Part shown: positions 3,772 to 17,241 of the stretch, one piece after another
How the letters are laid out: each line of letters begins with the position of its first letter
Numbering within the stretch: position 1 is the stretch's first letter
From: Actinomycetota bacterium
GTDB taxonomy: Bacteria; Actinomycetota; Thermoleophilia; UBA2241
NCBI GenBank assembly: GCA_003132645.1
Contig: PKYM01000123.1
Location: 1,243-18,648 of the forward strand
DNA: 17,406 bases
Direction: 5' to 3'
Notes under the pieces: generated by a model
The model's input: the letters and a program-made list of their open reading frames with translations, nothing else
Database searches by the model: none
Told to the model about the DNA's origin: nothing
Position numbers and translations under genes: made by a program

Positions 3772-4785
3772 CTACAGCCTGGGCTCAGCGAGCTCGTGCA
3801 GCTCCTGGTGCGCGTCAAGCGGGGATGAGAGCGCCGTCAGACTCGCGGGTGGGCGATCGAAATTGATGCGCTCGCTCTCAACGACGTGCGGTCGATGGTA
3901 GACCTGCGTCTGGATCGAGCCGATGTACTCCCCCAAGATGCCCATGAAGAAGAGCTGCACGCTGCCGAAGAAGTAGATGCCGATCAGCAGCGGCGCGAGG
4001 CCCAGGTCGAAGGTCTGCCAGAATACGAGTTTCAGCACGAGATAGATGAGCGAGATGCCCAGCGAGAGCACCGAGAGCAGAAAGCCAGCCATCATCGCCA
4101 GGCGCAGGGGCACCTTGGAGTGGTTGGTGATGCCCAGCATGGCGAGGTCGTACAACGTGTAGAAGTTGTTCTTGGTGATGCCGTGCTGCCGCCGCTGCTG
4201 AACGTAGGGTATCTCGGCGTGTTCGTAGCCCAGATCGCTGATAAGACCGCGGAAGTAGGGGTACGGGTCGTCGATGTCGCGCAACGAGTCGATCACGACC
4301 CTGTCGTACAGGCCGAAGCCTGTGAAATTCTCGATCAGCGGCACTTCGCTGAGGCGGTTGATGAGCCGGTAGTAGAGACCGCGCACAAAGAACATCGAAC
4401 GCTTTTCGAGGCTCTGCACCTTGACGGCTACGACGACCTTGTAGCCCTCTTCCCACTTGACGACGAAGTCGCGGATCAGCGCCGGCGGGTCCTGCAGGTC
4501 GGAGGCGATGTAGCAGACCGCGTCGCCGCACGCCTGCAGCAGGCCGTGGTAGGGAGAGCGCACATGACCGAAGTTGCGCGTATTGACGATCACCTTGACG
4601 TGCGCGTCCCTGGCACAGATCTCCCGCAGGATGGGCACGGTTCGGTCGGTCGAGGCGTTGTCGATGAAGATGTGCTCATAGTCGTAGCCCGGCAGCGCCT
4701 CGCAGACGGCGCGCACGCGCTCGCATAGCTCGGCGACGTTTTCCTCTTCGTTATAGCAGCCGCTCACGATGCTGATCGTGGTCAA
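3772..4785 (-). CDS. GT2 family polyprenyl-phosphate glycosyltransferase, GtrB/DPM1-like
   Basis: Family-2 glycosyltransferase of 337 residues, expected to move a sugar from a nucleotide donor to polyprenyl phosphate on the inner face of the membrane. Seen: the N-terminal SIVSGCYNEEENV (5-17), the IDNASTD donor loop (41-47), the metal-binding DLQDP (96-100), RRQHGITKNNFY (198-209), and two membrane spans at about 229-253 and 263-285 followed by GEYIGSIQTQVYHRP. This layout is that of GtrB, ArnC and bactoprenol glycosyltransferases. The start is TTG at 4785, supported by GAAGGGA five bases upstream. It overlaps the stop of the upstream gtrA-like gene by 4 bases (TTGA), which indicates translational coupling. 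The GtrA neighbour supports a lipid-linked sugar made here and used outside. The sugar transferred is not evident. Confidence 0.92.
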   Translation of the reverse strand: MTTISIVSGCYNEEENVAELCERVRAVCEALPGYDYEHIFIDNASTDRTVPILREICARDAHVKVIVNTRNFGHVRSPYHGLLQACGDAVCYIASDLQDPPALIRDFVVKWEEGYKVVVAVKVQSLEKRSMFFVRGLYYRLINRLSEVPLIENFTGFGLYDRVVIDSLRDIDDPYPYFRGLISDLGYEHAEIPYVQQRRQHGITKNNFYTLYDLAMLGITNHSKVPLRLAMMAGFLLSVLSLGISLIYLVLKLVFWQTFDLGLAPLLIGIYFFGSVQLFFMGILGEYIGSIQTQVYHRPHVVESERINFDRPPASLTALSSPLDAHQELHELAEPRL

Positions 4786-5264
4786 CGCGGTCCCTTCGTC
4801 GATGCAGTGAGCCGTTCACGACGGCCTGCCGGCCCGCCGAAGCTGAAGTACTTGTGAGCCACATAGCTTGCCACCACAACGGCGACCCCAAAGGCCGCCT
4901 GGATCGCGTAGGCATTCCACGGCAACCAGCGAACGGCCAGCGGAAAGGCGATCAAGTTGACGAGCATCGTCGCAACGTATACGGACGAAAACCGCGGCAG
5001 CTCCCGCCACACCCTGTTGTGGCTGCGAAAGACGACGAAGCGATACCAGACGTATGCGTTGGCGGTAGCGATGGTGTAGGAGATCACGAGAATCGGGGCG
5101 TAGCCGACGTGATGCGACAGCAGCGCGTACAACGCCGCCCAGATCGCGTAACCAAACACGGTGTTGAAGGCCCCGACCGCAAGGTATTGCAGCTTCTCCG
5201 CGTGCGGGACGAGAAACCGGGGGACGTAGCGGTCGGCGGCGGCCTCGATGGCTCGCCGGCTCAC
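4782..5264 (-). CDS. GtrA-like membrane protein (putative lipid-linked sugar translocation)
   Basis: Small membrane protein of 160 residues with four hydrophobic spans at about 26-48, 53-77, 92-114 and 116-138. It opens with LQYLAVGAFNTVFGYAIW (25-42) and has conserved NAYVWYRFVVFRS (69-81) and a closing VAHKYFSFG, the typical GtrA family pattern. GtrA proteins accompany GtrB-type glycosyltransferases and are thought to flip or help move polyprenyl-phosphate sugars across the membrane. The longer open frame reaches back to 5552 inside the FkbM gene, but I chose GTG at 5264. It overlaps the FkbM stop by GTGA, like other junctions in this cluster, and gives the usual family length. The downstream GT2 gene overlaps by 4 bases, so the pair is co-translated. 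Transport by this protein is family knowledge, not shown here. Confidence 0.9.
   Translation of the reverse strand: MSRRAIEAAADRYVPRFLVPHAEKLQYLAVGAFNTVFGYAIWAALYALLSHHVGYAPILVISYTIATANAYVWYRFVVFRSHNRVWRELPRFSSVYVATMLVNLIAFPLAVRWLPWNAYAIQAAFGVAVVVASYVAHKYFSFGGPAGRRERLTASTKGPR
4791..4797 (-). promoter_or_regulatory. Ribosome binding site of the GtrB-like gene
   Basis: GAAGGGA on the minus strand ends 5 bases before TTG 4785. It lies inside the end of the gtrA-like gene and supports the unusual TTG start. Confidence 0.75.
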
Positions 5265-6490
5265 GGCGCGGCTCGCTCGGCGGGGATGGCGTAGAGGACA
5301 CAGTCGAACCCGTCGGGACGGTGCGCTCGCAGGTGGAGACGGTAGTCCTCGGTCAGCTCTGCCACGAGGGCCGGTAACCGCCACAGGTCGGCCTGATGGT
5401 GATACGCCGACACGGCCAGGACGGGGCGTCGCTCGCGCAGCAGCTTCTGCGCGCCACGTAGCGCGTCGGCCTCGGCGCCCTCGACATCCATCTTGATGAA
5501 GCTCACGGCCGCGTCTTTGAGCGCGTCGTCGAGACTCACACACGCCACGCACCCGTCGTGCGGACCGTCGCCAGCAGTGGCCGACGTCGCCTGCGCATCG
5601 ACGAAGGCGCCGGCGGGCCCGAGTCCGGCGAAGCGCCGGCTGCCTGGCCCGTGGTCCGCCGCCGCTTGGTGAAGGCGCAGGCGAGCGCCGTACCGTCGCG
5701 CCAGCGTCGCCGTCGTGCGTTCGAGGGCCGCGAAGTTGCCGGCGTCGGGCTCGAAGGCATCGATGCTGGCGAACTCGGGACAGCGGGCGACAACCTCCTG
5801 TACGGTGTCGCCGTCAAACGCGCCGCAGTCGACGAAAACCTCGCCCGGGTGCAGCGTGAGCAGGTCAGACGGAAAGTACTGCTCAGGCACGGGATCGTCG
5901 AGGTCCGTGAAGTCGCCGCTCAGCCGCCAACGCGTCTGTCGCACGAACTCGTCGCTCGAAGCGAAGTCGGCCCATATTGAGGCCATTCGCGTCACCTCGT
6001 CGGCCGCCGCCAGGACAGCGCTCGGCCGCCCGGCTGCATAGCAGGGCAGCAGATCGGCAGCCTCCAGGCCCCAGGCGAGCCTGATCCACGAGACAACGTC
6101 ACGGCAACCGGACTCGTGGAGCTGTCTTGCGCTGTCGGCGAAGGCATGTCCGGGATTCCAGGCCGCGACCACGAACGAGCCTTGGGCGCCATGGCGAGCC
6201 GCCGCCTCGCCCGGGGCCAGCACGGGGGTGCCGTGCACCCGCGTGCCCCACAGACGTGAGTCGTTGTCGGCGAACGCCGCGGGCGGAGCGCCGGCAGCCG
6301 CGAGTGCGGCGCGCAGGCGCCGACCAAGACCGCCCGCGCCGAACAGAACCACGGGCGGCGCATCGTCGGCGGTCATACGCCGCGCGACTTCGATCTCGCG
6401 CGCGCGGGCCTCCGCCCGGCTCTCGGCGAGCAGCGGCGCAAGAGTCTCGACGGCGTAGTTCACCCTAGATGCCACGAGCCTCGATGACAT
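5261..6490 (-). CDS. FkbM family methyltransferase with N-terminal Rossmann-like domain
   Basis: A 409-residue protein. The C-terminal half is an FkbM-type SAM-dependent methyltransferase: VFVDCGAFDGDTV (218-230) is SAM motif I, DAFEPD (244-249) follows, and FIKMDVEGAE (331-340) is the FkbM signature. FkbM enzymes usually O-methylate sugar or polyketide hydroxyls. The N-terminal part (about 45-150) looks like a separate nucleotide-binding Rossmann domain with VLFGAGGLGRRL (48-59) and FADND (73-77), as in PglD-like or sugar-acceptor modules. ATG at 6490 lies 26 bases inside the end of the neuB-like gene, and its GAGGA is too close to be a good ribosome site. GTG at 6475 or 6463 are alternatives. 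The GtrA-like gene overlaps its stop (GTGA). The target sugar is unknown. Confidence 0.9.
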   Translation of the reverse strand: MSSRLVASRVNYAVETLAPLLAESRAEARAREIEVARRMTADDAPPVVLFGAGGLGRRLRAALAAAGAPPAAFADNDSRLWGTRVHGTPVLAPGEAAARHGAQGSFVVAAWNPGHAFADSARQLHESGCRDVVSWIRLAWGLEAADLLPCYAAGRPSAVLAAADEVTRMASIWADFASSDEFVRQTRWRLSGDFTDLDDPVPEQYFPSDLLTLHPGEVFVDCGAFDGDTVQEVVARCPEFASIDAFEPDAGNFAALERTTATLARRYGARLRLHQAAADHGPGSRRFAGLGPAGAFVDAQATSATAGDGPHDGCVACVSLDDALKDAAVSFIKMDVEGAEADALRGAQKLLRERRPVLAVSAYHHQADLWRLPALVAELTEDYRLHLRAHRPDGFDCVLYAIPAERAAP

Positions 6491-7544
6491 TCCTCAGGCT
6501 CTCATGGTGGGCATAGGGGCTGTCGATGGCGTCGATGGTGATGGCCTGGTCGGCAACGACCGAGCGCAACAGCACCTCGCCTCGCATCAGCTCCCGGCAC
6601 GAGATCTGCCCTTTCTGCAGCGGGATCGCGAGATAGACGTCGTCGTCTGTGAGAGCGTGTGCGGCCGGCAGGTCGCGGCGCGCGTAGACGCCCCGCACGA
6701 GACCGTTCAGATACTCGATCTCGGGACGGCTGCAGGTGCGCCAGCTGTCACCAGTGGGGCCGCACATCTCCTGGGCCTTCTTCCAGGCCTTGAACCAGGT
6801 GTCAACCTGCTCCGGCAGCGAGCAATACGGCGAGACTACGACTCCGCCGGCGTCAATGTCGACATGCCGCTCGAAAGTGCGAGCCCCCTTCGCGTAGGCA
6901 ATCGTGATCGAGCTCGTCCAGTCCTGGCACTCATGCGACGACAGCCCGATGGTGTGGTTGGGATACCGCGTGCGCAGAAAGTCGATCTGGTTGAGCTGCA
7001 AGTCCTCGTCGCCGCAGGGGTACAACGAGACGCAGTGGTTGATGGCCAGGGGGACGTTACGGTTCTCGAAGAACGTCACGAGATCGTCCAGGTCCTTGAG
7101 CGAGCAGCCCCCGGTGCTGACCATCACCGGCTGGCGCAGGCTGGCCAGCTTCTCGATGAGCACCCAGTCGTTGCCGTCGGAGCTCGCAAGCTTGAGGATC
7201 TGCACGCCGAGCTCTCGGCAGAGATCGACCGAGGCCTCATCGAAAGGCGTCGCCATGGTGACGCAGCCCGCCTTGCGGATGGCCTCGACCAGCACGCCGT
7301 AGTCGTCGTTGGACAGACGCGTGGCCAGCGTCTTTTGAATGTAGCGGATGTCGTCGCGCTCGCGGAAGTCCTTGTGGATGAAGTGCTCCACGTCGCGCAA
7401 CTGCAGCTTGATCGCGGCGCGAATGTTGTTGAACCGCACCACTCTCGAATAGGCCGTGATGATGTCGAGTCCTCGCCGGACGTCGCCCCCATGGTTGTTG
7501 GCGAGTTCCAAGACGAATAGATCTTCAAAGATATCCCGGTTCAT
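6465..7544 (-). CDS. NeuB-family synthase (sialic/nonulosonic acid synthase-like) with SAF domain
   Basis: A 359-residue TIM-barrel synthase of the NeuB/SpsE family, which condenses phosphoenolpyruvate with an N-acetylhexosamine-type aldose to make a nine-carbon keto acid. Seen: LELANNHGGD (12-21), AAIKLQ (43-48), TPFDEASVD (99-107), LKLASSD (117-123), MVSTGG (141-146), NHCVSLYP (169-176), GLSSHE (200-205), FERHVDID (224-231), and a C-terminal SAF/antifreeze-like domain from about 284. Several motif residues depart from the classic forms (for example ERH instead of EKH, SSH instead of SDH), so the substrate may not be ManNAc. The ATG at 7544 is chosen because GGAGG sits 5 bases upstream; a GTG at 7550 overlaps that site. 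No CMP-sugar synthetase or epimerase is in the window. It is the first gene after a 181-base gap. Confidence 0.86.
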   Translation of the reverse strand: MNRDIFEDLFVLELANNHGGDVRRGLDIITAYSRVVRFNNIRAAIKLQLRDVEHFIHKDFRERDDIRYIQKTLATRLSNDDYGVLVEAIRKAGCVTMATPFDEASVDLCRELGVQILKLASSDGNDWVLIEKLASLRQPVMVSTGGCSLKDLDDLVTFFENRNVPLAINHCVSLYPCGDEDLQLNQIDFLRTRYPNHTIGLSSHECQDWTSSITIAYAKGARTFERHVDIDAGGVVVSPYCSLPEQVDTWFKAWKKAQEMCGPTGDSWRTCSRPEIEYLNGLVRGVYARRDLPAAHALTDDDVYLAIPLQKGQISCRELMRGEVLLRSVVADQAITIDAIDSPYAHHESLRNVIEARGI

Positions 7545-7725: not shown

Positions 7726-8895
7726 TCAAGTCAAAGATACAAACGCATTATGCAGCCCGTAGACCCGGCGCGCCGCGTCGACGATCTCCGCTTCGTGGGC
7801 CGGCGCACCTATGAGTATGGCTTCGTGGCGTGCGGCGAGGGCTTCGGGTCCCGTCACGGTGAGACCGGCTACCACAAGACCGTGAAGCCGGGGGGCGTCG
7901 ACGATGGCCACCACATTGGCCTCAGCCAGCGGCGAGCGAGCGAGGAGATGCTGCGTGTGCGTGCCGGCTCCCCAGATGATCAGCGGCTCGCCTGTCGCGC
8001 TCAGGCGCCGCAACTGCGCTCGTAGCTCGCGTTCACGGACCTCGCTGTCTGTGACGTACCGGCGCGCCGCCAAGCCACCGACGCGGTCTCGGGCCAGCGT
8101 TGAGCTCACCCGGGAATGCTTGAACACGCCGCAGACGACCGGCTCGGGGACCGTTCCGGTATGGCGCAGCGCCGGCCACGCTTCGACCAGCGCCAACCCG
8201 GCGCCGGCCGCGGCGTGGGCGAGCGAGACCTGCGTGAAGCAGTTGATGTGCTCCACGCTGAACTGCTGGAAGGGCACGGACGGGTAGTCGGCGAAGCGTT
8301 CGAGATCGGGCACCTCGATGTACAGCAGGCCATCCGCGGCGAGTACGCTCGACGTTTCCCGCAGCGCGGCGGGGATCTCGCGAACGTGCTCCAGGACGGC
8401 GCACAGCAGCAGGCATCCCGCCCCTGCCGCGCTCGGCGGCATCGCGAGGACGCTGCCCGCCACGACCTCGACGCCGTGCAGCCGGCGCGCGGCCGAGGCG
8501 GAATGTTCGGCCGAATCGATACCCAGCAGGTTCGTGTGGCCGGCCTGCCTCAAGAGCCCGAGAACGTCACCGTTCCCGCAGCCGACGTCGACGATCCGCG
8601 TGGCAGGATCGGGCAGAAGCGACAGCAGCCGCGCGACCATGTCGCGGTGCGAGTCACCCAGCGCCGGCGGCGCCTCTCCACCGCGCTCCAGATACTCATA
8701 CTTTGAGGTGGCGACATAGTAGCGGTCCAGGGACTCCTGACTGGGGATGCCGTCGGCGTAGACGGCACCGCAACCGGTGCACTCGACTACGTCGTACGCG
8801 GTGATGCGTTTGCCGTCGTCTTCAACCGCGAACCGCTGGCGATAGAGCGTCTCGGGCTCGTAGCGGCCGCAAACCGGACAGTCGCGGCGACTCAC
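7726..8895 (-). CDS. Sugar C-methyltransferase-like SAM enzyme (NovU/TylC3 architecture)
   Basis: A 389-residue protein in three parts. First is an N-terminal zinc-ribbon with C6PVC9 and C39TGC42. Next is a class I SAM-dependent methyltransferase core with IVDVGCGNGD (101-110), LGIDSAE (124-130), LEHVREIP (168-175) and the family-typical FSVEHINCFTQVSL (212-225). Last is a C-terminal Rossmann-like domain starting IIWGAGTHTQHLL (306-318). This order is that of the NovU/TylC3 group, which C-methylates 4-keto nucleotide deoxysugars, usually at a carbon next to the ketone. The open frame extends back to 9144, but GTG at 8895 is chosen because it overlaps the HAD stop (GTGA), has GGGAG about 8 bases upstream and begins right before the zinc ribbon. 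It is last in the operon that makes the CDP-deoxysugar, which fits such a substrate. The exact position methylated is unknown. Confidence 0.87.
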   Translation of the reverse strand: MSRRDCPVCGRYEPETLYRQRFAVEDDGKRITAYDVVECTGCGAVYADGIPSQESLDRYYVATSKYEYLERGGEAPPALGDSHRDMVARLLSLLPDPATRIVDVGCGNGDVLGLLRQAGHTNLLGIDSAEHSASAARRLHGVEVVAGSVLAMPPSAAGAGCLLLCAVLEHVREIPAALRETSSVLAADGLLYIEVPDLERFADYPSVPFQQFSVEHINCFTQVSLAHAAAGAGLALVEAWPALRHTGTVPEPVVCGVFKHSRVSSTLARDRVGGLAARRYVTDSEVRERELRAQLRRLSATGEPLIIWGAGTHTQHLLARSPLAEANVVAIVDAPRLHGLVVAGLTVTGPEALAARHEAILIGAPAHEAEIVDAARRVYGLHNAFVSLT

Positions 8896-9623
8896 GCGTC
8901 GCTCCCGCAGCCGTCGGCTGCCATGACCAGGGCGACGATCCCGGCAGGCGAGTCGAGCACGAGGTCTGCCGGCAGGGTGGCCACGTGAGGTGCCGTGCGG
9001 CGGTCCCCGGCCGCCGTGACCGCATGGCCGTAGCCATAGGTCGCGGCCGCGAACGAGGCGTCGCAGGCGTCGGCCATCTGCCGATCGTCGACTGAGTCGC
9101 CGACCACAAGCAGACGAGCACCCCGCACGGCGCACGCCGCGCACGCCGCGCGCGCCATGGCGGCCTTGTCGCGGTACGGAGGTTGCACTGAGTCCAGCGT
9201 GTAGAGGGCTTCGAGACAGGGTGCGACCCCGAACGCCGCCAGGATCGCGAGCGCCGGATGCCTGCGCTTGTTTGTCACCACGATCTGACGCACACCGGCC
9301 GCGGCCAGCTGCTGAAGCGCCGCGATCACTCCTGGATAGGGGCGGCTGAGGCGCCAGCCTTGAGCGTCGTAGTGCTGCGCGAAGGCGGCGGCGACGGCCG
9401 GCAGGGCGGCGGGCTCGAGACCTGGCAGCGCTTCGCGCAGCAGACCGGCCAAAGGCCGACCCAGGAGCGTATCGAGCACCGGTGGTTCGACCCCCGGCGC
9501 ATGTGTCGCGAGGGCGGCTCGCAGGGACGCCTCGATCCCGGGTCGCGAATCGACCAGCGTGCCGTCGAGATCGTAGAAGACGGCGTCATAGCGCAGGGCG
9601 ACGTTCGCCACATCAGGACTCAT
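8892..9623 (-). CDS. HAD-superfamily phosphatase (Gph-like)
   Basis: A 243-residue cytosolic hydrolase of the haloacid dehalogenase superfamily, close in layout to phosphoglycolate phosphatase. Motif I is FYDLDGTLVDS (16-26), with D18 the nucleophile and D20 the general acid. Motif II is VVTNKR (115-120), motif III is probably K153, and motif IV is VVGDSVDD (173-180). A cap domain lies between residues 27 and about 95. ATG at 9623 overlaps the stop of the ThDP enzyme (ATGA), and its own stop overlaps the methyltransferase start (GTGA), so it is held firmly inside the sugar operon. That placement suggests a sugar phosphate substrate. It could serve the deoxysugar path or a 9-phosphate product of the neuB-like enzyme. 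Sequence alone does not decide. Confidence 0.9.
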   Translation of the reverse strand: MSPDVANVALRYDAVFYDLDGTLVDSRPGIEASLRAALATHAPGVEPPVLDTLLGRPLAGLLREALPGLEPAALPAVAAAFAQHYDAQGWRLSRPYPGVIAALQQLAAAGVRQIVVTNKRRHPALAILAAFGVAPCLEALYTLDSVQPPYRDKAAMARAACAACAVRGARLLVVGDSVDDRQMADACDASFAAATYGYGHAVTAAGDRRTAPHVATLPADLVLDSPAGIVALVMAADGCGSDA

Positions 9624-11479
9624 GGTTCGCGCGCTTCGTTTGCCGCCCCTGGCGACCCGCCTATCCGGTTCTCGGCAAGCTCCTGGCTATCGAGGAACGG
9701 GTAGAGATCGTCGAGGGCGGGCGATTCGATGGTGCCGTCGCGCCTCTGACGCGACCGCACGCGCGGCTCGAAGCCCTGTCGCGGGTCGACCACGACCTGG
9801 CAAAGGCAAGGACCGTCGCCGGCCAGCACGGCGCCGATCGTCTCGGCGATGGCGGCGGGGTGGCTCAGTCTCACGGCGGGAAGGCCGTACGCCCCAGCCA
9901 CGGCGACGTAGTCGGGAAGCTCCAGGCCGCTCGCCGGGCTCTCCCCGATCAGACCGTCGAAGAACGCTCGCTGCGTACTGCGGATCGACAGGTAGCCGCC
10001 GTTGTCGAGGACGAAGATCTTGACCGGCCAGCTGGTCTGAACCAGGGTCTGCAGCTCCTGAATGTTCATCTGCAGGCTGCCGTCGCCGGCCAGGCAGACG
10101 ATCGCCGGTCTGTCCGCGGCCAACGCCGTGCCGTGCATCTCGGCGGCGGCGGCGGCGGCGCCGAGCGCGGCCGGCAAGTCGTAGCCCATCGAGGCCGCGC
10201 CTGAGTTCGAAAAGAGGCGCTGACCGTCGCACAGGCGAGCGGTCTGGAACGCCATGACGCACGCGGCACCGTTGCCTGTGACCACCACGTCATGGGCTCC
10301 GAGCCGCCCGAACAGCTCCTCCATGAAGTGATACGGGTTGATGGGCGGCGCGCTGCTGCGCTGGTGCTCCTGCACTACCGGATAGCGCGCCACCCGCTCT
10401 CTGCACCAGGCAAGCCAACCGGCGTGGCGGCCCACGGCGTAGGAGCGCCGCTCGAGCTCGGCCTCGAGCGCGCCGAGAAACTCGGCAAGATCGGCGGTGA
10501 TCGGCAGATCGACTCGAACCGTCGGCTTGTCCATCTCGCCGGCATCCACGTCGACCTGGATCTTGTAGGCGCCGGCAGCAAACGAAGCCCCGTCGTAGCC
10601 GACCTGGCGGATGTTCAGGCGCGAGCCCAGAATGAGCAGCGTATCGGAGCTCTGCACTACGAAATTGCCGGCCCGATCGCCGATCGTTCCCGGGCGTCCG
10701 CACCAGAGGGGATGGTCGGTCGGCAGCACGTCGTGAGTCCAGGCGGTCGTCACAGGAATCCCGAGGCGTTGCACAACCGCGTGGAATCTGTTCGTCGCAC
10801 CGGCCAGCCGGACACCGCTGCCGGCCAGAACAACGGGACGCTCCGCCGCGGCGAGCCGGTCGAGCACGACACTGGCCATCGCGACCACGTCGTCGGCGAG
10901 CACCGGGGGCTCAGCGGCGGGGTCGTAGCCGACCAGGGCGTGCTCGTCGATCGGAGAGCTCTGCACATCGACGGGGATGTCGAGCCATACAGGACCCTGG
11001 CGGCCGTGCGTCGCAAGCCACAGTGCGCGCTCGACATGGTAGCGCACCTCAGAGGGCTCAGTAAGAAGCGCGGCATACTTGGTGATGCCTGTGACCATGC
11101 GGACGATATCGGCTTCCTGGTCGCCGAGTTGCCGCACGCGCAGGCCGGGATGTGAGGCCATACAGGTCTCACGTTTGACCTGGCCGGAAATCACGACCAT
11201 GGGCAGCGAGTCCGTCCAGGCCCCGAACACACCGTTCAGCGCATTGATGGCCCCAGGGCCTGAGGTGACGCTGACGATCGCCGGGCGTCCCGAGATCCGG
11301 GCGTAGCCCTCGGCCGCCATGGCCGCTGCCTGCTCGTGGTGCATACAGGTGTACGAAAGGAGTGTTTCGCGACGCAGGGCATCGTTCAGGAACATGGCGG
11401 CACCGCCCGTCACCAGAAAGGCCCGCCGCAGACCTGCCGCGGCCAGGCGCGCCATGACGTAGTCGGCGACCCGGATCAT
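9620..11479 (-). CDS. ThDP-dependent acetolactate synthase-like enzyme, candidate YerE-type sugar ligase
   Basis: A 619-residue protein with the three-domain fold of acetohydroxyacid synthase. The Pyr domain has the catalytic glutamate in HHEQA (E49) and SVTSGPGAINALNG (70-83). The middle domain includes ILGSRLNIRQVG (283-294). The PP domain has SNSGAASMGYDLPAALG (424-440), AGDGSLQMN (464-472) with Mg/ThDP ligand D466, and DNGGY (492-496). The end, DGTIESPALDDLYPFL (581-596), is typical of members in polysaccharide clusters. In Yersinia, YerE uses this fold to add an acetyl unit from pyruvate to C-4 of CDP-3,6-dideoxy-4-keto-glucose. Presence of rfbFGH in the same operon supports that role. 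ATG at 11479 overlaps the SDR stop (ATGA); an upstream ATG at 11500 is less likely. A polyalanine insert sits near 441-446. Ordinary acetolactate synthesis is not excluded but no ilvN or ilvC is present. Confidence 0.9.
   Translation of the reverse strand: MIRVADYVMARLAAAGLRRAFLVTGGAAMFLNDALRRETLLSYTCMHHEQAAAMAAEGYARISGRPAIVSVTSGPGAINALNGVFGAWTDSLPMVVISGQVKRETCMASHPGLRVRQLGDQEADIVRMVTGITKYAALLTEPSEVRYHVERALWLATHGRQGPVWLDIPVDVQSSPIDEHALVGYDPAAEPPVLADDVVAMASVVLDRLAAAERPVVLAGSGVRLAGATNRFHAVVQRLGIPVTTAWTHDVLPTDHPLWCGRPGTIGDRAGNFVVQSSDTLLILGSRLNIRQVGYDGASFAAGAYKIQVDVDAGEMDKPTVRVDLPITADLAEFLGALEAELERRSYAVGRHAGWLAWCRERVARYPVVQEHQRSSAPPINPYHFMEELFGRLGAHDVVVTGNGAACVMAFQTARLCDGQRLFSNSGAASMGYDLPAALGAAAAAAEMHGTALAADRPAIVCLAGDGSLQMNIQELQTLVQTSWPVKIFVLDNGGYLSIRSTQRAFFDGLIGESPASGLELPDYVAVAGAYGLPAVRLSHPAAIAETIGAVLAGDGPCLCQVVVDPRQGFEPRVRSRQRRDGTIESPALDDLYPFLDSQELAENRIGGSPGAANEAREP
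10141..10157. repeat. Short CGG trinucleotide run inside the ThDP gene
   Basis: Five and two-thirds CGG units encode most of an alanine run just before the GDGS cofactor motif. In-frame gain or loss of units would only change the alanine count. It may be simple codon bias in a high-G+C gene. Confidence 0.5.
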
Positions 11480-12516
11480 GCGGTCTTCTCGCGGTGCCAT
11501 GACATCGTGCGGCGAACTGCGTCCTCAAGCGAAGTCCACTCGGCCACGCCCAGCTCGGAGCGAGCGCGCGCCGTGCTGGGAACATACCAGCTTCCTCCTC
11601 CGCCAGGGTCGCGCCCGCCCTCGATGCGCACTTCGAGTGGCCGTGCCGCCGCCTGCGCGACGATGCTCGCCGCCTCGGCGATCGTCACGGCCCGCTGCGA
11701 GCCGACGTTGTAGGCCCTGCCGGGCCGGCCGTCAACGAGAATCGCCCAAAGCCAGCCGGCCATGTCGGCGGCGTAAAGGTACGAGCGCACCGGAGTGCCG
11801 TCGCCGTGCACCACCACGGGCTTGCTCGCCAGTGCATCGGCGATGAAGTTGCCGATTGCGAAATGCCGGTCGAGAGGCAGGCCCGGACCCACGAACGAAA
11901 AGAGCCTGGCGATCGACACGGCCGGCGGGCCGCCGACGCCACAGGAGCTCAGCATCGACTCCATCCGGCGCTTCGCCTGATGGTAGGCGAAGCGATCGTC
12001 ATCGGCGTCAGGCCCGCCGCAGGGATCGTTCTCGGACAGCGGCCGGCGGGCGCCGGGCGCCCGCCGATACACGGCTCCGGAGCTCAGCGCGAGAAGGTGG
12101 CCGACGCCTCTTGCTTCGCAGAACTCCACGACGCGACGCGTGCCGTCGATGATTGTGCTGCGCATGTCGGAGGGGCGCTCCTGGGCGAGTGCGGCATCGG
12201 CCGTGGCCGCCGCGTGGATCACGTGCGTGAAACGCCCCGCGGGCCAGGAGCACTCGCGCACGTCGCCACCGACAAGATCGACAGCCTCGTCACCGGCTAT
12301 CTCGGGGACGGAGCGCGCGTAGGCGGCCGGGTCGCGCGTCAGCACCACGGCCCGGACGCCGAGGCCAAACCGGCGGTTTGCGCCGCACATCGTGGCCAGC
12401 AGCCAGGTCCCGACAAACCCCGTTCCACCGGTGACGAACAGCCGGGCGTCGCGCAGACTCTCGCAGCGATGTCCGAGGCGCGCGACCGCCCGGGCGGTAT
12501 CGGAGGCGACGATCAC
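11476..12516 (-). CDS. Extended SDR (NAD-dependent epimerase/dehydratase family), candidate ketoreductase
   Basis: A 346-residue extended short-chain dehydrogenase. The cofactor site is VTGGTGFVGTWLL (28-40), followed by LSSGAVY (144-150) and the catalytic YHQAK (Y178, K182). Later family motifs are ARLFSFVGPG (203-212), HGDGTPVRSYLYAADMA (237-253) and YNVGS (269-273). Such enzymes dehydrate, epimerise or reduce nucleotide sugars. Lying directly before the YerE-like gene, and after rfbFGH, it could reduce the ketone of a branched CDP-sugar (the YerF step) or a 4-keto group. YerF is named for role, not for shown similarity. GTG at 12516 overlaps the GT87-like stop (GTGA) and is preferred over a frame extending to 12924 that lies wholly inside that gene. 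The downstream ATG of the ThDP gene overlaps its stop. Confidence 0.86.
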   Translation of the reverse strand: MIVASDTARAVARLGHRCESLRDARLFVTGGTGFVGTWLLATMCGANRRFGLGVRAVVLTRDPAAYARSVPEIAGDEAVDLVGGDVRECSWPAGRFTHVIHAAATADAALAQERPSDMRSTIIDGTRRVVEFCEARGVGHLLALSSGAVYRRAPGARRPLSENDPCGGPDADDDRFAYHQAKRRMESMLSSCGVGGPPAVSIARLFSFVGPGLPLDRHFAIGNFIADALASKPVVVHGDGTPVRSYLYAADMAGWLWAILVDGRPGRAYNVGSQRAVTIAEAASIVAQAAARPLEVRIEGGRDPGGGGSWYVPSTARARSELGVAEWTSLEDAVRRTMSWHREKTA

Positions 12517-13886
12517 GGTCGCTCGCCGCCCGTGTCGGTCGCCCGTGTCGATGCGACGGAGATCGTGGCGTCGTCGGCGCTGACCGCGCGGCCGCGATTC
12601 CTGCGAAATGCGAACCGTCGCGTGCCGAAAGCGTCGCCCCTCGCCTCGACGACCTGCGGTGCCGCGTCGGGCGTCACGCAGGTGACGATCAGGGCGATGC
12701 AAACCAGCGGGTAGACGATCGCCGAACTCGTCACGTCGAAGATCAGGACCCTGTAGTCGGCGCGAATCAGGAGGAGCCCCAAAAGGATGGCGGCCCGGCG
12801 CCCGTGTCGGGAGTCGGCTCCGTACGCCCCGATCAGCGCCAGCGGCAAGAGAATGTGGACAAGGGTGTAGTCGTGGCTCTGAATCGGCAGGCACAACCCG
12901 GCGACCAGGAGCGCCGTAAAGCATTTCCAGGGTGCAAGGTCAGTGGTAATCACCCGCACGCTGACCCAGGCGAAGATCGCTAGGCAGAGCAGCAGATAGC
13001 AGAAGCTGAGGTTGGGTCCGGTCACGACGTAGTTCGAGTACATGTTCAGAAGCCGGAAGAGCCCCCAGAGAGAATGCCCGTGCTGCACGGCCCCCATGTT
13101 GGTGGCGTAGGCCCCAAAGCCGTCGAGGGTCGTGCGCGTGTTGCCCAGGACCTGCGGTACGGTGAAACCGGAATGCGCGGCCAGGACGATCGCACTCAGG
13201 ACCGTCACGGCCATCGCGCCCGTGACGGTGTACGCCAGCTCTTTCCAGCGGCGCTCCCGCACATACAGGACGAGCAGCACCGCGACGTAGTACTTGCCGG
13301 CGATAGCCAGCGCTAGGGGGACCCACGACCAGCGCGACTTTCGTTCGTAGTGGAGGTAGGCGAACGCGGCGAGCAAGACGAACATCAGCATCTCGAGGTT
13401 GCCGAGCTGCAGCGCGAACAGAACGGGGTACGACAGCGCCACGAAGATCGCAGTGTACGCCTGCCGCAGGCGGCGTCCCCCGACGCGGCGCGTCACCCCA
13501 TACCAGACCACGGCGACCAGCGTGGCCAGAAACACGGCGTTGAAGATCATCCAGACGACGACGTCCGGGAGGGCGGTCGCGTACGTCATCAGCAGATGCA
13601 ACGGAGTCGAATAGACCCTGTCCGTGGTGTGCGGCGGGCCATAGACGAGCGCCATGTGGTAGACCGAATTGAAGTCGTTAAAGGTACCCCGTGGGTCGAA
13701 CAGGAACGTGTCGTAGGGGTATCCCTTGCCGGTGGTCAGATGCACCGCGAGGTGGAAGACGGCGGCCGTCAGCGTGCCCACCAGCACGATGAGACCGGCG
13801 AGACGAATCTCGCGCCCGCCGTCGCGCTGCTGCTCGGGCAGGACGGCACCCGCCAGAAATCGCGAGAGCCGCTTCAGCACATCCAT
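12513..13886 (-). CDS. Polytopic membrane glycosyltransferase, GT87 (DUF2029)-like
   Basis: A 457-residue membrane protein with about ten hydrophobic spans from residue 29 to about 405 and a basic, soluble tail of about 50 residues. Features typical of GT87 polyprenyl-phosphate-sugar transferases are FNDFNSVYH (69-77) in the first outer loop, with D71 a candidate catalytic acid, the segment FALQLGNLEMLMF (157-169), and AGKYYVAVL (196-204). These enzymes add sugars such as mannose or arabinose from lipid-phosphate donors outside the membrane. Placed between rfbH and the SDR gene, it may add a sugar during assembly of the same glycan. A donor could come from the GtrB-like enzyme further left. 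Its ATG (13884-13886) follows the rfbH TGA with no gap. The family call rests on layout and short motifs, so it is moderate. Confidence 0.68.
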   Translation of the reverse strand: MDVLKRLSRFLAGAVLPEQQRDGGREIRLAGLIVLVGTLTAAVFHLAVHLTTGKGYPYDTFLFDPRGTFNDFNSVYHMALVYGPPHTTDRVYSTPLHLLMTYATALPDVVVWMIFNAVFLATLVAVVWYGVTRRVGGRRLRQAYTAIFVALSYPVLFALQLGNLEMLMFVLLAAFAYLHYERKSRWSWVPLALAIAGKYYVAVLLVLYVRERRWKELAYTVTGAMAVTVLSAIVLAAHSGFTVPQVLGNTRTTLDGFGAYATNMGAVQHGHSLWGLFRLLNMYSNYVVTGPNLSFCYLLLCLAIFAWVSVRVITTDLAPWKCFTALLVAGLCLPIQSHDYTLVHILLPLALIGAYGADSRHGRRAAILLGLLLIRADYRVLIFDVTSSAIVYPLVCIALIVTCVTPDAAPQVVEARGDAFGTRRFAFRRNRGRAVSADDATISVASTRATDTGGERP

Positions 13887-15272
13887 TCAGTGCGCTTCCG
13901 ACGCGGTAGTGATCTGGTCGGCAACGTAGTCGAGCATCTCGCCGGTAAGACCCGGGTAGACACCGACCCAGAAGGCGTCGTTCATGAGCCGGTCCGTGTT
14001 GTCAAGGCCAGAGGCAACGCGATAGCCGGTGCCGGCAGCGCGCCTGGAGTCAAAACACGGCTGCCGCACGATGTTGCCGGCAAACAGCATGCGCGTCTGG
14101 ATCCCGGCCGCTTCGAGTCGCGCCACGATCGCGGCGCGCGAAAGGCCGGCGGCAAGCGCCGTCTCGCGCAGCGTGAGCAAAAAGCCGAACCAGCTCGGCG
14201 CACTGCCCGCGGTCGCGCGTGGCAGCACGACCAGTTCGGCGAGCGGCGCGAGAGCAGCGGCGAGGCGGGCGTGGTTGGCGCGCCGTTGCGCGGTGAACCC
14301 CGCGAGCCGCTCGAGCTGAGCGCAGCCGACGGCGGCCTGCAGGTCGGTGGCGCGCAGGTTGTAGCCGAAGTGCGAGTACACGTACTTGTGGTCGTAGCCG
14401 TGCGGCAGCTCACCGAGGTCGTGAGCAAAGCGGCGTCCGCAGCGATTGTCCACGCCCGATGGGCAGGTGCAGTCGCGGCCCCAGTCGCGCAGCGAGGCGA
14501 GGATGCTCGCCAGCTCGTCGTTTGCCGTGTAGACGGCGCCGCCCTCGCCCAGGGTGAGGTGGTGCGGCGGATAGAAGCTGCTCGTGGCGACATCGCCGTA
14601 GGTGCCGGTCAGACGGCCGCGATACGACGAGCCCAGCGCGTCGCAGTTGTCCTCGACCAGCCAGAGGTCGTGCGCCCGGCAGAACGCGACCACGCTCTCG
14701 CAGTCGAACGGGTTGCCAAGCGTGTGAGCCACAAAGACCGCCCTGGTCCGCGGGCTCAGAGCCGCGGGCAGCAGCGCCACGTCGACGTTGGCCGTGTCGA
14801 GTTCGACGTCGACGAACACGGGAACGGCGCCGTACTGGACGATAGGTGCCACGGTGGTTGGAAAGCCGGCGGCGACGGTGATGACCTCATCGCCCGGCGC
14901 GATGCGGCGAGCGCCGAGACGCTCGCTCGTGAGCGCCATGAACGCCAGAAGGTTGGCCGACGAGCCCGAGTTCACAAGCAGACAGTGCCCGAGGCCGAGC
15001 AGGGCCGCGAGCTCGCGCTCGAAACGCTCGGCGAAGCGTCCGTGAGTGAGCCAGAAATCAAGCGAGGCGTCGACCAGGTTGCGCAACTCCTCGGGACCGA
15101 AGACGCGCCCGCCGTAGGGCACGCGCGACATTCCCGGCACGAACGCTCGGTCGGTCCCCGGGGCGGCGAGGGCGCCGGCTACGCCGGCGCCCTCGCCGCC
15201 CCCGAAGGCCTCGTCGTAGTAGCGGCCGACCAGCTCCATAATCTGGGCGCGCAGGTCGGAGGCGGCGCTCAC
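13887..15272 (-). CDS. rfbH: CDP-4-keto-6-deoxyglucose C-3 dehydrase (E1), RfbH
   Basis: A 461-residue member of the DegT/DnrJ/EryC1 fold. RfbH (E1, DdhC) uses PMP and a [2Fe-2S] cluster to remove the C-3 hydroxyl of CDP-6-deoxy-4-keto-glucose. Here FYPPHHLTLGEGG (233-245) has His237 where PLP aminotransferases carry lysine, corresponding to His220 of the Yersinia enzyme. Cysteines C210 (EDNCDALGSS), C268 and C270 (DWGRDCTC) and C278 fit the reported C-X57-C-X1-C-X7-C cluster motif exactly. LVNSGSSANLLAF (99-111) is the phosphate-binding segment. GTG at 15272 overlaps the rfbG stop (GTGA). The gene for E3, the flavin/iron-sulfur reductase that normally completes the reaction, is not in the window. 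It may lie elsewhere, or a general cellular reductase may serve. Confidence 0.97.
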   Translation of the reverse strand: MSAASDLRAQIMELVGRYYDEAFGGGEGAGVAGALAAPGTDRAFVPGMSRVPYGGRVFGPEELRNLVDASLDFWLTHGRFAERFERELAALLGLGHCLLVNSGSSANLLAFMALTSERLGARRIAPGDEVITVAAGFPTTVAPIVQYGAVPVFVDVELDTANVDVALLPAALSPRTRAVFVAHTLGNPFDCESVVAFCRAHDLWLVEDNCDALGSSYRGRLTGTYGDVATSSFYPPHHLTLGEGGAVYTANDELASILASLRDWGRDCTCPSGVDNRCGRRFAHDLGELPHGYDHKYVYSHFGYNLRATDLQAAVGCAQLERLAGFTAQRRANHARLAAALAPLAELVVLPRATAGSAPSWFGFLLTLRETALAAGLSRAAIVARLEAAGIQTRMLFAGNIVRQPCFDSRRAAGTGYRVASGLDNTDRLMNDAFWVGVYPGLTGEMLDYVADQITTASEAH

Positions 15273-16471
15273 AGGCGGCCACCGTCGGCCGCCGTCGCGG
15301 AAGCTTTGGCGCTCGTCCAGGGCAAGCCCAGCGCACCGGCCGCCCGGACGTAGTCCGCGATGTCGGCCTCGAGCGCGCCGCGCAGGTCGGCAGCGCCCGC
15401 CGCCCAGCCGCGATACCAGGCGGCCGTTCGTGTGACGGCGGCGCGTGCATCCCAGACCGCCGTCCAGCCCAACTCGTCGCGGCTCTTGGTGCAGTCAAGC
15501 AACAGCAATCCAGCCTCGTGGATCCGCTCGCGGTCGTCCGCCGCGCGCCAGGAGCCCGCCCCGTAGGCCGCGACGAACTCCCCGACCAGTTCGGCAACGG
15601 AGATGGTGGCGCCGGCCGCGGGGCCGAAGTTCCAGGCTCCCTCGCACGCGTGGCCGTCGGCGAGCAGCCGGGCGCCGAGCCAGAGATAGCCCGACAGCGA
15701 CTCGAGCACATGCTGCCACGGCCGGACTGCGGCTGGGTGGCGCACCACGATCTCGTGGCCGGCGGCGATCGCCCTGACGCAGTCGGGCACGAGGCGGTCG
15801 GTGGCCCAGTCGCCGCCGCCGATGACGTTGCCAGCCCGCGCCGTAGCCACACAGACCGCCGAATCGCGACCGAAGAAGCTCCTGCGGTAGGCCGCGGTGA
15901 CGAGCTCCGAGGCGCCCTTGCTTGCGCTGTAGGGGTCGTAGCCGCCCAGCGCGTCGTCCTCGCGATACGCTACGGTCGTCTCACAGTTCTCGTAACACTT
16001 GTCGCTTGTCACGTTCACGACGGCGCTCACAGATGGACAGGAGCGCACTACCTCGAGCAGATTCACCACGCCCATCACGTTGGTCTCGAACGTGTCGCGT
16101 GGGTCGCCGTACGAGGGCCGCACGAGTGGCTGCGCAGCAAGATGGAAGACGATCTCGGGCCGGCACACAGCGACGGCGGCCGACAAGGCGGCGAGGTCGC
16201 GTACGTCGCCCGCGACGTGCGCGACCTCGCCGTCAAGGCCGATGAGATCGAATAGGCTGGGGGTGGTCGGCGGCGCCAGGGCATAGCCGGCGACGCTCGC
16301 GCCGAGATTGGAAAGCCAGGCGCACAACCACGATCCCTTAAAGCCTGTATCGCCGGTGACCAGCACCCGGCGGCCGACGTAAGCGCCGCCGAACAGCTCG
16401 GCCCGGGCGCCGGCGCGGCGCTCGATAGTGTCGGCGGCCACCCCGCGCGGCGTTGGTGGCGCAGCGGTCAC
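15269..16471 (-). CDS. rfbG: CDP-glucose 4,6-dehydratase
   Basis: A 400-residue extended SDR that converts CDP-glucose to CDP-6-deoxy-4-keto-glucose, the second step toward 3,6-dideoxyhexoses. Seen: VLVTGDTGFKGSWL (36-49) for NAD binding, HLAAQPLVRPSY (110-121), NVTSDKCYEN (153-162), which is the RfbG hallmark, GGYDPYSASKG (176-186) with catalytic Y181 and K185, ARAGNVIGGGDW, and HPAAVRPWQHVLE. The open frame extends far upstream across rfbF, but GTG at 16471 is chosen: it overlaps the rfbF stop (GTGA) and has GGAGAG four bases upstream. The result carries about 25 to 30 N-terminal residues before the Rossmann fold, longer than usual. A start further in would remove these. Order rfbF-rfbG-rfbH matches known CDP-dideoxysugar operons. 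Confidence 0.96.
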   Translation of the reverse strand: MTAAPPTPRGVAADTIERRAGARAELFGGAYVGRRVLVTGDTGFKGSWLCAWLSNLGASVAGYALAPPTTPSLFDLIGLDGEVAHVAGDVRDLAALSAAVAVCRPEIVFHLAAQPLVRPSYGDPRDTFETNVMGVVNLLEVVRSCPSVSAVVNVTSDKCYENCETTVAYREDDALGGYDPYSASKGASELVTAAYRRSFFGRDSAVCVATARAGNVIGGGDWATDRLVPDCVRAIAAGHEIVVRHPAAVRPWQHVLESLSGYLWLGARLLADGHACEGAWNFGPAAGATISVAELVGEFVAAYGAGSWRAADDRERIHEAGLLLLDCTKSRDELGWTAVWDARAAVTRTAAWYRGWAAGAADLRGALEADIADYVRAAGALGLPWTSAKASATAADGGRL

Positions 16472-17241
16472 CACACTCTCCACGGCGCCTTGCCCGTCTG
16501 CCAGAGCTCCTCGAGCGTGTTCCTGTCGCGCAACACGTCCATCGGCTGCCAGAAACCACGGTGCCGATAGGCCATAAGCTCGCCGTCCTGGGCGAGCCGC
16601 TCGAGCGGCTCGCGCTCGAGGTAGGTCTCGTCGCCGACGAGGTAGTCGAGCACACCGGGCTCGAACACGAAGAAGCCGCCGTTGACCCAGGCACCGTCGC
16701 CGGCCGGCTTTTCTGTGAACGAGGTCACCTGACGGCCTTCGCTGTCGAGCTGCAGCGCGCCGAATCGCCCGTGCGGCTGCACCGCGGTCACCGTGGCCAG
16801 TCGCCCATGGGCGCGGTGGAAGGCCAGCAGCCCCGCGACGTCGACGTCGGCTACGCCGTCGCCGTAGGTCAGCAGGAAGGTCTCGTTGCCGAGGTAGCCG
16901 GCCACGCGCTTGACGCGGCCGCCGGTCTGCGTGCCGGCGCCGGTGTCGACCAGCGTGACGCGCCACGGTTCGACCTCGCCGTCGTGGACTTCCATGGCAC
17001 GCTGGCGCAGGTCGAACGTCACGTTCGAGCTGTGCAGGAAGTAGTTGGCGAAGTACTCCTTGATGACGTAGCCCTTGAAACCAAGGCACACCACAAAGTC
17101 GGTCAGCCCATAGTGACTGTAGATCTTCATGACGTGCCAGAGCAGCGGGCGGTCGCCGATCTCGACCATCGGCTTGGGCCGTACCTGAGTCTCCTCGGAC
17201 AGGCGCGTGCCTAGTCCACCGGCGAGGATCACCACCTTCAC
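16468..17241 (-). CDS. rfbF: Glucose-1-phosphate cytidylyltransferase
   Basis: RfbF makes CDP-glucose from CTP and glucose-1-phosphate, the committed step to CDP-3,6-dideoxyhexoses. The 257-residue protein has the usual family length. Seen: VVILAGGLGTRLSEET (3-18) with RPKPMVEIG (21-29) for nucleotide binding, FKGYVIKEYFANYFL (55-69), which is typical of RfbF, LLTYGDGVADVDV (123-135) for metal and sugar, FTEKP (175-179), WVNGGFFVFEP (185-195) and GFWQPMDVLRDRN (229-241). The start is GTG at 17241 with a strong GGGAGG six bases upstream; a frame reaching 17286 would add 15 residues without such a site. Its stop overlaps rfbG by 4 bases. It is the first gene of the right-hand block within the window, so a promoter may lie just upstream. 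Confidence 0.97.
   Translation of the reverse strand: MKVVILAGGLGTRLSEETQVRPKPMVEIGDRPLLWHVMKIYSHYGLTDFVVCLGFKGYVIKEYFANYFLHSSNVTFDLRQRAMEVHDGEVEPWRVTLVDTGAGTQTGGRVKRVAGYLGNETFLLTYGDGVADVDVAGLLAFHRAHGRLATVTAVQPHGRFGALQLDSEGRQVTSFTEKPAGDGAWVNGGFFVFEPGVLDYLVGDETYLEREPLERLAQDGELMAYRHRGFWQPMDVLRDRNTLEELWQTGKAPWRVW

Follow-up and report, generated by a model that had tools for sequence, protein, structure and literature searches.

We suggest that a packed run of genes on the minus strand of a 17,406-nucleotide stretch of an Actinomycetota genome (assembly GCA_003132645.1, contig PKYM01000123.1; the whole stretch is referred to here as the window) probably makes a cytidine diphosphate (CDP)-linked 3,6-dideoxyhexose with a branch at C-4 that is longer than two carbons, and that this sugar would be intended for a surface glycan. 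The branch would come from a keto acid made by a NeuB-like enzyme of the same run and would be attached by a thiamine diphosphate (ThDP)-dependent enzyme. That the locus product is a CDP-linked, C-4-branched 3,6-dideoxy sugar is well supported by gene content, because RfbF, RfbG, RfbH and a short-chain dehydrogenase/reductase (SDR) are present and the ThDP enzyme groups with the YerE-like enzymes JanthE and PpYerE, the genome having a separate ilvB. For the origin of the donor, our main argument is that NeuB-like, HMGL-like and HpcH/HpaI-like enzymes are interchanged in the vicinity of the ThDP gene of related loci. The genes on which the proposal turns are the following.

16468..17241, minus strand: RfbF, glucose-1-phosphate cytidylyltransferase (TIGR02623, 436 bits; cut-off 300)
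15269..16441, minus strand: RfbG, CDP-glucose 4,6-dehydratase (TIGR02622, 456 bits; cut-off 278; start codon uncertain)
13887..15272, minus strand: RfbH, CDP-6-deoxy-4-hexulose-3-dehydrase, or E1 (NF011936, 665 bits; cut-off 423)
11476..12516, minus strand: extended SDR, proposed reductase of the branch ketone (PF01370)
9620..11479, minus strand: ThDP-dependent C-C ligase of 619 residues, YerE-like, JanthE lineage (PF02776, PF00205, PF02775)
8892..9623, minus strand: HAD-family hydrolase, proposed to dephosphorylate the keto-acid donor (PF00702/PF13419)
6465..7544, minus strand: NeuB-like synthase dependent on phosphoenolpyruvate (PEP), proposed maker of a 2-keto-3-deoxy acid (PF03102, 123 bits)

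A scan of genome contigs confirmed at least 567 relatives of the ThDP enzyme, and the best 80 loci, with enzymes 43-59% identical to that of the window, were examined. Clustering of open reading frames found three types of aldol-type partner gene, NeuB-like, HMGL-like (family c10) and HpcH/HpaI-like (family c14), which were counted by tblastn with bit-score thresholds. In this first set of 81 loci, the window included, a NeuB-like gene is present in 41, c10 in 21 and c14 in 15; four loci have no partner and none has two. At the 77 partnered loci the two genes are close neighbours, no more than 200 bases apart in 41 cases and no more than 2.5 kb apart in 73, and on the same strand in 75; the window's own partner lies 2.1 kb away. 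Twelve further loci from the window's phylum formed a second set, which held c14 in seven (L089 and L096-L101), a divergent NeuB in one (L103) and no partner in four, so that over both sets a partner is found in 85 of 93 loci (NeuB-like 42, HpcH/HpaI-like 22, HMGL-like 21) and is missing from eight. The window's own family, represented by 15 genomes, has four other YerE-like loci, all with c14 directly after the ThDP gene. Judged by record titles, loci with a related ThDP enzyme occur in Acidobacteriota, Verrucomicrobiota, Planctomycetota, Pseudomonadota, Bacteroidota, Bacillota, Chloroflexota, Cyanobacteriota and others.

On a tree of 97 ThDP sequences the partner type changes at least nine times among the 84 typed rows, compared with 35-39 changes in ten shuffles, which indicates that the partner types are inherited and yet have been exchanged repeatedly. 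Clear cases of exchange are L022, which has c14 within the NeuB clade, and L078, which has a NeuB within a c14 clade. At L103 (10824-12241, genome G311) a NeuB only 25% identical to that of the window (PF03102, 230 bits) and a small HAD gene directly follow the ThDP gene; with 53 bits in tblastn it was counted as a NeuB because it adjoins the ThDP gene and passes PF03102, and it represents a separate recruitment of a NeuB. The other two families were examined through representatives. That of c10 matches PF00682 and, with scores under their cut-offs, 4-hydroxy-2-oxovalerate aldolase models, and has as its best PDB match a putative aldolase, followed by 4-hydroxy-2-oxovalerate aldolases. For c14 a PDB search by sequence gave no match and the family match is weak (PF03328, 32 bits; cut-off 25), but the predicted structure, with a predicted local distance difference test (pLDDT) score of 94.5, has HpcH/HpaI (HpaI pyruvate) aldolases as its top fold matches. 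Among the invariant residues of the c14 proteins are E113, R140 and D142, which we take to be catalytic.

Pyruvate aldolases join pyruvate to an aldehyde to give a 2-keto-3-deoxy acid, and NeuB enzymes give the same class of acid from PEP and an aldehyde. The known long-branch enzymes of the YerE-like class use 4-hydroxy-2-oxo acids, the products of such aldolases, and an aldol-type partner would fit as the source of their donor. According to the available sections of a review of YerE-like enzymes (PMC12247030), from which all our statements on that paper are taken, ErwE adds hydroxylated (4-hydroxy-)2-oxo acids rather than pyruvate onto CDP-3,6-dideoxy-4-keto-glucose, the CDP sugar proposed here too, and MMAR_2332, the caryophyllose enzyme, has a similar donor preference. 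The caryophyllose branch is a 1,3,4,5-tetrahydroxyhexyl group, as given in the accessible part of PMC5706390. Its C-2 is deoxy, which is what decarboxylation of a 2-keto-3-deoxy acid would give, C-2 of the acid turning into C-1 of the branch; this deduction is our own. The erwiniose and caryophyllose systems, compared here by description, thus resemble the proposed one in having a C-4 branch derived from a functionalised, longer 2-oxo acid.

In the pathway that we propose, all the substrates and products of which we infer from the genes, RfbF, RfbG and RfbH would provide CDP-3,6-dideoxy-4-keto-glucose. The NeuB-like enzyme would join PEP to an aldehyde, which is probably a small sugar and perhaps a phosphorylated one, and so give a 4-hydroxy-2-keto-3-deoxy acid, from which the HAD enzyme may strip the phosphate. 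The ThDP enzyme would then decarboxylate the keto acid and add the resulting acyl anion to the C-4 ketone, yielding a tertiary alcohol with an adjacent ketone. Reduction of the branch ketone would fall to the SDR and modification of the product to methyltransferases, and the finished sugar could be transferred either by a family 2 glycosyltransferase (GT2) with GtrA or by a GT87-type enzyme.

The original prediction for this locus was a yersiniose-type operon, in which the ThDP enzyme adds two carbons from pyruvate at C-4; the NeuB-like protein would then have to serve another step or another sugar. The window does carry the yersiniose set as that prediction gave it, namely RfbF, RfbG, RfbH, the ThDP enzyme and the SDR, and like the YerE pathway it combines a ThDP enzyme with the genes for CDP-3,6-dideoxy-4-keto-glucose. 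The two-carbon branch is nevertheless probably wrong. A NeuB-like gene is added, aldol-type partners are frequent in related loci and switch type at least nine times, and the enzyme itself departs from PpYerE, our yersiniose-type reference for the ThDP comparisons. In pairwise comparison the window enzyme is 37% identical to JanthE, 28% to PpYerE and 30% to the IlvB of the same genome, so that identity alone cannot part PpYerE from IlvB. A tree of 34 rows separates four acetolactate-type rows, with support 100/99, from all the others, namely the window clade, JanthE, L092, PpYerE and four PpYerE-like rows, and among these others JanthE and the window clade form a group of 24 rows (100/97), outside which L092 and the PpYerE-like rows fall. 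PpYerE is thus outside the clade of JanthE and the window, its exact position not being fixed by the tree, and JanthE, PpYerE and L103 are long branches in both ThDP trees. A loop reading QMW or QQW occurs in all five YerE-type and all three IlvB rows and in none of the 84 aldol-linked rows, the window included, where mostly A-C-(V/I) stands in its place; at a second motif, W/F is replaced by T in 82% of the NeuB-type rows and in all c10 and c14 rows. From acetolactate synthase structures we presume that both the loop and the second motif line the active site. No aldol-type partner was found in the stretch read at the PpYerE-like loci L091, L106 and L108, all of which have RfbH and two of which have RfbF and RfbG-like genes. 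A fourth such locus, L107, is cut by the end of its contig, L106 has 3.4 kb upstream, and L106-L108 lie outside the 93 loci. Taken together, we regard a yersiniose-type product as unlikely. The prediction also had YerF as the reductase of the branch, a role that is not settled, the ketoreduction of yersiniose having been called uncharacterised in 2016 in the accessible part of PMC4753412.

Several observations weigh against a donor supplied by the NeuB-like enzyme. JanthE, the nearest characterised relative that we found, accepts pyruvate too (PMC12247030), and JanthE lineage is consequently compatible with a two-carbon branch. At L090 (3597-10850) there are RfbF, RfbG, RfbH, an SDR, a GT2 and a ThDP enzyme 45% identical to that of the window, but no aldol partner in 20 kb, which would fit a yersiniose-type product, and L076 has none in the sequence present, including 2.7 kb on the 3' side. 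The 80 loci were the top-scoring matches to the window and not a random sample of YerE-like loci. One HMGL-type locus, L036, has in addition a remote NeuB (29%, 73 bits) 7 kb away beside a PF02348 cytidylyltransferase gene. NeuB homologues 42-43% identical to that of the window occur in two genomes, G063 and G215, where they are not tied to a YerE-like gene, neither genome having matched in the search for such ThDP enzymes, so that a NeuB fold does not by itself tell what is made. L112, the second acetolactate-like protein of the genome, reads KLW where the QMW loop would be, and loss of that loop is accordingly not confined to branching enzymes. Within the window there is no E3 reductase for RfbH; two PF00175 matches, of 32 and 24 bits (cut-off 22), lie elsewhere in the genome. 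Finally, the genome is 88% complete and families not found in it may lie in the missing sequence.

The remote NeuB of L036 and its neighbour look like a separate nonulosonate set, and the locus was not scored as having two partners; if any NeuB is counted, 84 loci have one partner, one has two and eight have none. L036 aside, no second partner family was detected in the 93 loci down to an E value of 1e-5. Among the partnerless loci, L046, L058, L061 and L102 have a contig end at, or no more than 0.8 kb from, the 3' side, and at L090, L091 and L092 about 9 kb could be read on each side; L091, which is of PpYerE type, and L092 have more distant ThDP enzymes (37% and 36%). Of two IlvB loci taken for comparison, L109 gave no match to a partner type and L110 gave one weak c10 match (54 bits), to a protein of homocitrate/isopropylmalate-synthase type (PF00682 and HCS_D2).

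The NeuB-like protein resembles sialic acid synthases (3g8r, 6ncs, 1xuu) in fold family and conserved residues. Its PF03102 match is below the cut-offs of the NeuB and PseI equivalogs, and its best PDB match is 3g8r (217 bits). Homologues 55-70% identical to it lie no more than 6 kb from the ThDP gene in 40 other loci. In an alignment of 43 rows the residues N17, H18, K46, Q48, T99, P100, F101, D102, K118, S121, S143, H170, C171, S202, H204, E225 and H227 are near-invariant and common to both references. It differs from the sialic acid synthases in belonging to a clade of its own with ThDP loci, the 41 ThDP-linked proteins forming one group (support 91, no star) apart from L093, L094 and 3g8r in a tree with long outgroup branches. 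No other NeuB above cut-off was found in the genome. L094 (8212-10466, genome G215) has a NeuB of 42% identity beside a PF02348 cytidylyltransferase gene and no ThDP match in 20 kb; it is likely to be an ordinary nonulosonate locus and possibly represents an ancestor type.

Such arrangements, together with the family membership and conserved residues of the protein, would favour the idea that the locus provides a single glycan with two distinct residues: a 3,6-dideoxy sugar, plain or branched, and a nonulosonic acid synthesised by the NeuB-like protein. We consider this quite improbable. Searching the genome, which is 88% complete, for PF02348, the NeuA/KdsB family of cytidine monophosphate (CMP)-sugar synthetases, gave no match, where the same search was positive in 11 of 14 genomes; there is thus no usual route from the NeuB-like protein to a nonulosonate glycan. 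A NeuA-like gene is likewise found in none of the 41 NeuB-type loci, and two separate residues would leave the swap of NeuB for pyruvate-type aldolases beside the ThDP gene unexplained.

As to the ThDP enzyme itself, its place among the YerE-like enzymes of sugar branching, rather than among the acetolactate synthases, is supported by the tree described above, and in this respect the original prediction of a YerE-like enzyme holds. It has the three TPP_enzyme domains, and its HHEQ and GDGSLQMN motifs (catalytic Glu and GDG...N) are in place. The best PDB matches by sequence are 8rph (JanthE) with 405 bits, 5ahk with 222 and a plant acetolactate synthase with 199. Entry 5ahk is titled as an acetohydroxy acid synthase Pf5 of Pseudomonas protegens, and we take it to be the PpYerE of the review. 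An AlphaFold model of middling confidence (pLDDT 75), which served for fold ranking only, has JanthE first and 5ahk at rank 17, behind two 6lpi chains and eight entries for acetolactate synthases of plants. JanthE, from Janthinobacterium sp. HH01 (PDB 8RPH, 8RPI, 8RPJ), is therefore the closest solved relative and best fold match and belongs to the same large clade, although it has CDG instead of the usual GDG that is kept in the window enzyme. It is reported to be YerE-like and to use both long and short 2-oxo acid donors (PMC12247030). Among the genomes of the window's order, five of 15 have a YerE-like enzyme, its largest piece scoring at least 393 bits; no other acetolactate-like match there exceeds 221 bits. 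A plasmid search with the enzyme gave 46 records, and among the 30 listed identity is at most 34.7% and the annotated ones are called acetolactate synthase. One relative, L100 (8992-10803, genome G312), has a single in-frame TAG in the ThDP gene and may be a broken copy or reflect a sequencing error.

We also considered whether the enzyme is an acetolactate synthase isozyme of branched-chain amino acid synthesis, placed in a sugar operon by chance, given the acetolactate synthase fold of the protein and its top NCBIfam matches to acetolactate models. This was rejected as highly improbable, since the protein scores 305 bits against a cut-off of 538 with TIGR00118 and is below cut-off for every acetolactate model among the best 25 of 53 profile matches, is split from acetolactate-type rows in the tree, and the genome has its own ilvB on contig C296, 2 kb from the ketol-acid reductoisomerase gene (ilvC).

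The family matches of RfbF, RfbG and RfbH are far beyond chance, and with the SDR these enzymes fit the route to a CDP-4-keto-3,6-dideoxyhexose as first predicted, the curated cut-offs being passed. RfbH has 3bcx as its closest PDB entry (502 bits). All 52 aligned sequences, that of the window among them, share four cysteines and the first His of the YP-HH motif. This His presumably stands where the lysine for pyridoxal phosphate would be and the cysteines presumably bind an iron-sulfur cluster, together the hallmark, as we understand it, of an E1 dehydrase.

Other genes of the locus vary with the type of partner, although in these neighbour counts genes under the thresholds remain uncounted. 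The SDR type of the window is present in 31 of 41 NeuB-type loci, none of 21 c10 loci and one of 15 c14 loci; SDR family c11 is found in no NeuB-type, 16 c10 and one c14 loci, and family c13 in two, one and 11, respectively. Each aldol type tends to bring its own SDR, a tendency that would follow from action of the SDR on the product. A HAD gene is present in 21 of the 41 NeuB-type loci. An AroB-related 'sugar phosphate phospholyase' gene (c12; TIGR04425, 413 bits, cut-off 400) occurs at L053 (9723-10793) and at 18 other loci of the 81, alongside each of the three aldol types; 18 of these 19 loci have an SDR in its vicinity. It is never found together with HAD in the 93 loci (hypergeometric 5e-5; a tree-based test was not significant), a hint that c12 may be an alternative remover of phosphate or may close a ring on the branch.

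The remaining genes of the run are these.

12513..13886, minus strand: GT87-type membrane glycosyltransferase (PF09594, 39.5 bits)
7726..8895, minus strand: S-adenosylmethionine-dependent methyltransferase, weakly like sugar C-methyltransferases (PF13489)
5261..6490, minus strand: FkbM-family methyltransferase (PF05050; TIGR01444 above cut-off)
4782..5264, minus strand: GtrA-type membrane protein (PF04138, 62 bits)
3772..4785, minus strand: family 2 glycosyltransferase, proposed to work with GtrA on a lipid-linked sugar (PF00535, 81 bits)
2810..3763, minus strand: radical SAM protein, final gene of the packed run (PF04055, 36 bits)

The methyltransferase at 7726-8895 has as its best PDB match a sugar 3-C-methyltransferase (5t6b, 37.5 bits), followed by TcaB9, and from this likeness the product may also be C-methylated; similar genes are present in 21 of 41 NeuB-type loci and in one of the 36 loci of the other two types. 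FkbM-like genes occur in 20 and GT2 homologues (at least 200 bits) in 23 of the 41 NeuB-type loci. The FkbM methyltransferase of the window has an N-terminal stretch weakly like the N-domains of NeuD/PglD acyltransferases (TIGR03570, 22.6 bits, below cut-off). No relative of the radical SAM gene was detected by tblastn in the 80 ThDP loci retrieved.

The genes named in the original prediction (RfbF, RfbG, RfbH, the SDR and the ThDP enzyme) are present on the minus strand at 9620..17241, with domains and curated cut-offs passed, but the operon does not end at 9620 as was then thought. The tight run continues through HAD, methyltransferase, NeuB-like, FkbM, GtrA, GT2 and radical SAM genes to about 2810, beyond which lie a membrane protein gene and ispG. 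Overlaps of 4 nt occur at seven junctions (RfbG/RfbH, GT87/SDR, SDR/ThDP, ThDP/HAD, HAD/methyltransferase, FkbM/GtrA and GtrA/GT2), the RfbH and GT87 genes abut, and gaps of 26 and 181 nt separate RfbF from RfbG and the methyltransferase from the NeuB-like gene. To judge from the sequence, the packing is that of an operon; a scan for promoters and terminators gave no signal exceeding that of shuffled sequence. The right edge of the window is the end of the contig (C159), which places the sequence upstream of RfbF outside our view, in a genome of 3.24 Mb in 370 contigs. In another genome of the same genus (G343, 89% complete) the ThDP enzyme, RfbH and this NeuB were all unmatched in a search of the order, and the locus seems to be variable within the genus.

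The enzyme class is known, and the donor arrangement has apparently not been described. In the available sections of the review (PMC12247030) a term search found no mention of NeuB, and aldolases only as another class of carboligation. We found no publication in the open-licence literature that joins NeuB or oxovalerate aldolase with CDP-glucose or thiamine sugar branching, nor one that links branched-chain sugars with RfbH and thiamine, caryophyllose lipooligosaccharide with an acetolactate synthase, or a CDG motif with thiamine diphosphate; part of the arrangement may already be given in a Freiburg dissertation on sugars with longer branches that the review cites (Steitz 2019). Among the matches listed for YerE, aldolase and branched sugar, only the review and a paper on EvdS6 (PMC10338323) deal with branched sugars, to judge by title or abstract, and a search of the same literature for gene clusters of 4-C-branched sugar biosynthesis from pyruvate found only a review on nuclear magnetic resonance.

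More generally, we lean slightly towards the view that these are widespread loci for surface sugars with very long branches, in which an interchangeable enolate enzyme of NeuB-like, HpcH/HpaI-like or HMGL-like type would make a polyhydroxylated 2-keto-3-deoxy acid and a YerE-like enzyme would join it to CDP-3,6-dideoxy-4-keto-glucose. YerE-like enzymes are described as using C2 to C8 keto acids, and more than 200 of them have been found in silico, the vast majority at loci without a known sugar structure (PMC12247030). If the proposal is true, the product of the NeuB-type loci would be a sugar of at least ten carbons, made with the help of a NeuB recruited to supply donors to a thiamine enzyme. 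This would be a further use for NeuB-type synthases, and it would offer paired enzymes for the making of tertiary alcohols. Should the pattern of partners hold, the kind of donor could be read from the adjacent aldol enzyme, and the physiological substrates of a large group of enzymes would become testable gene by gene.

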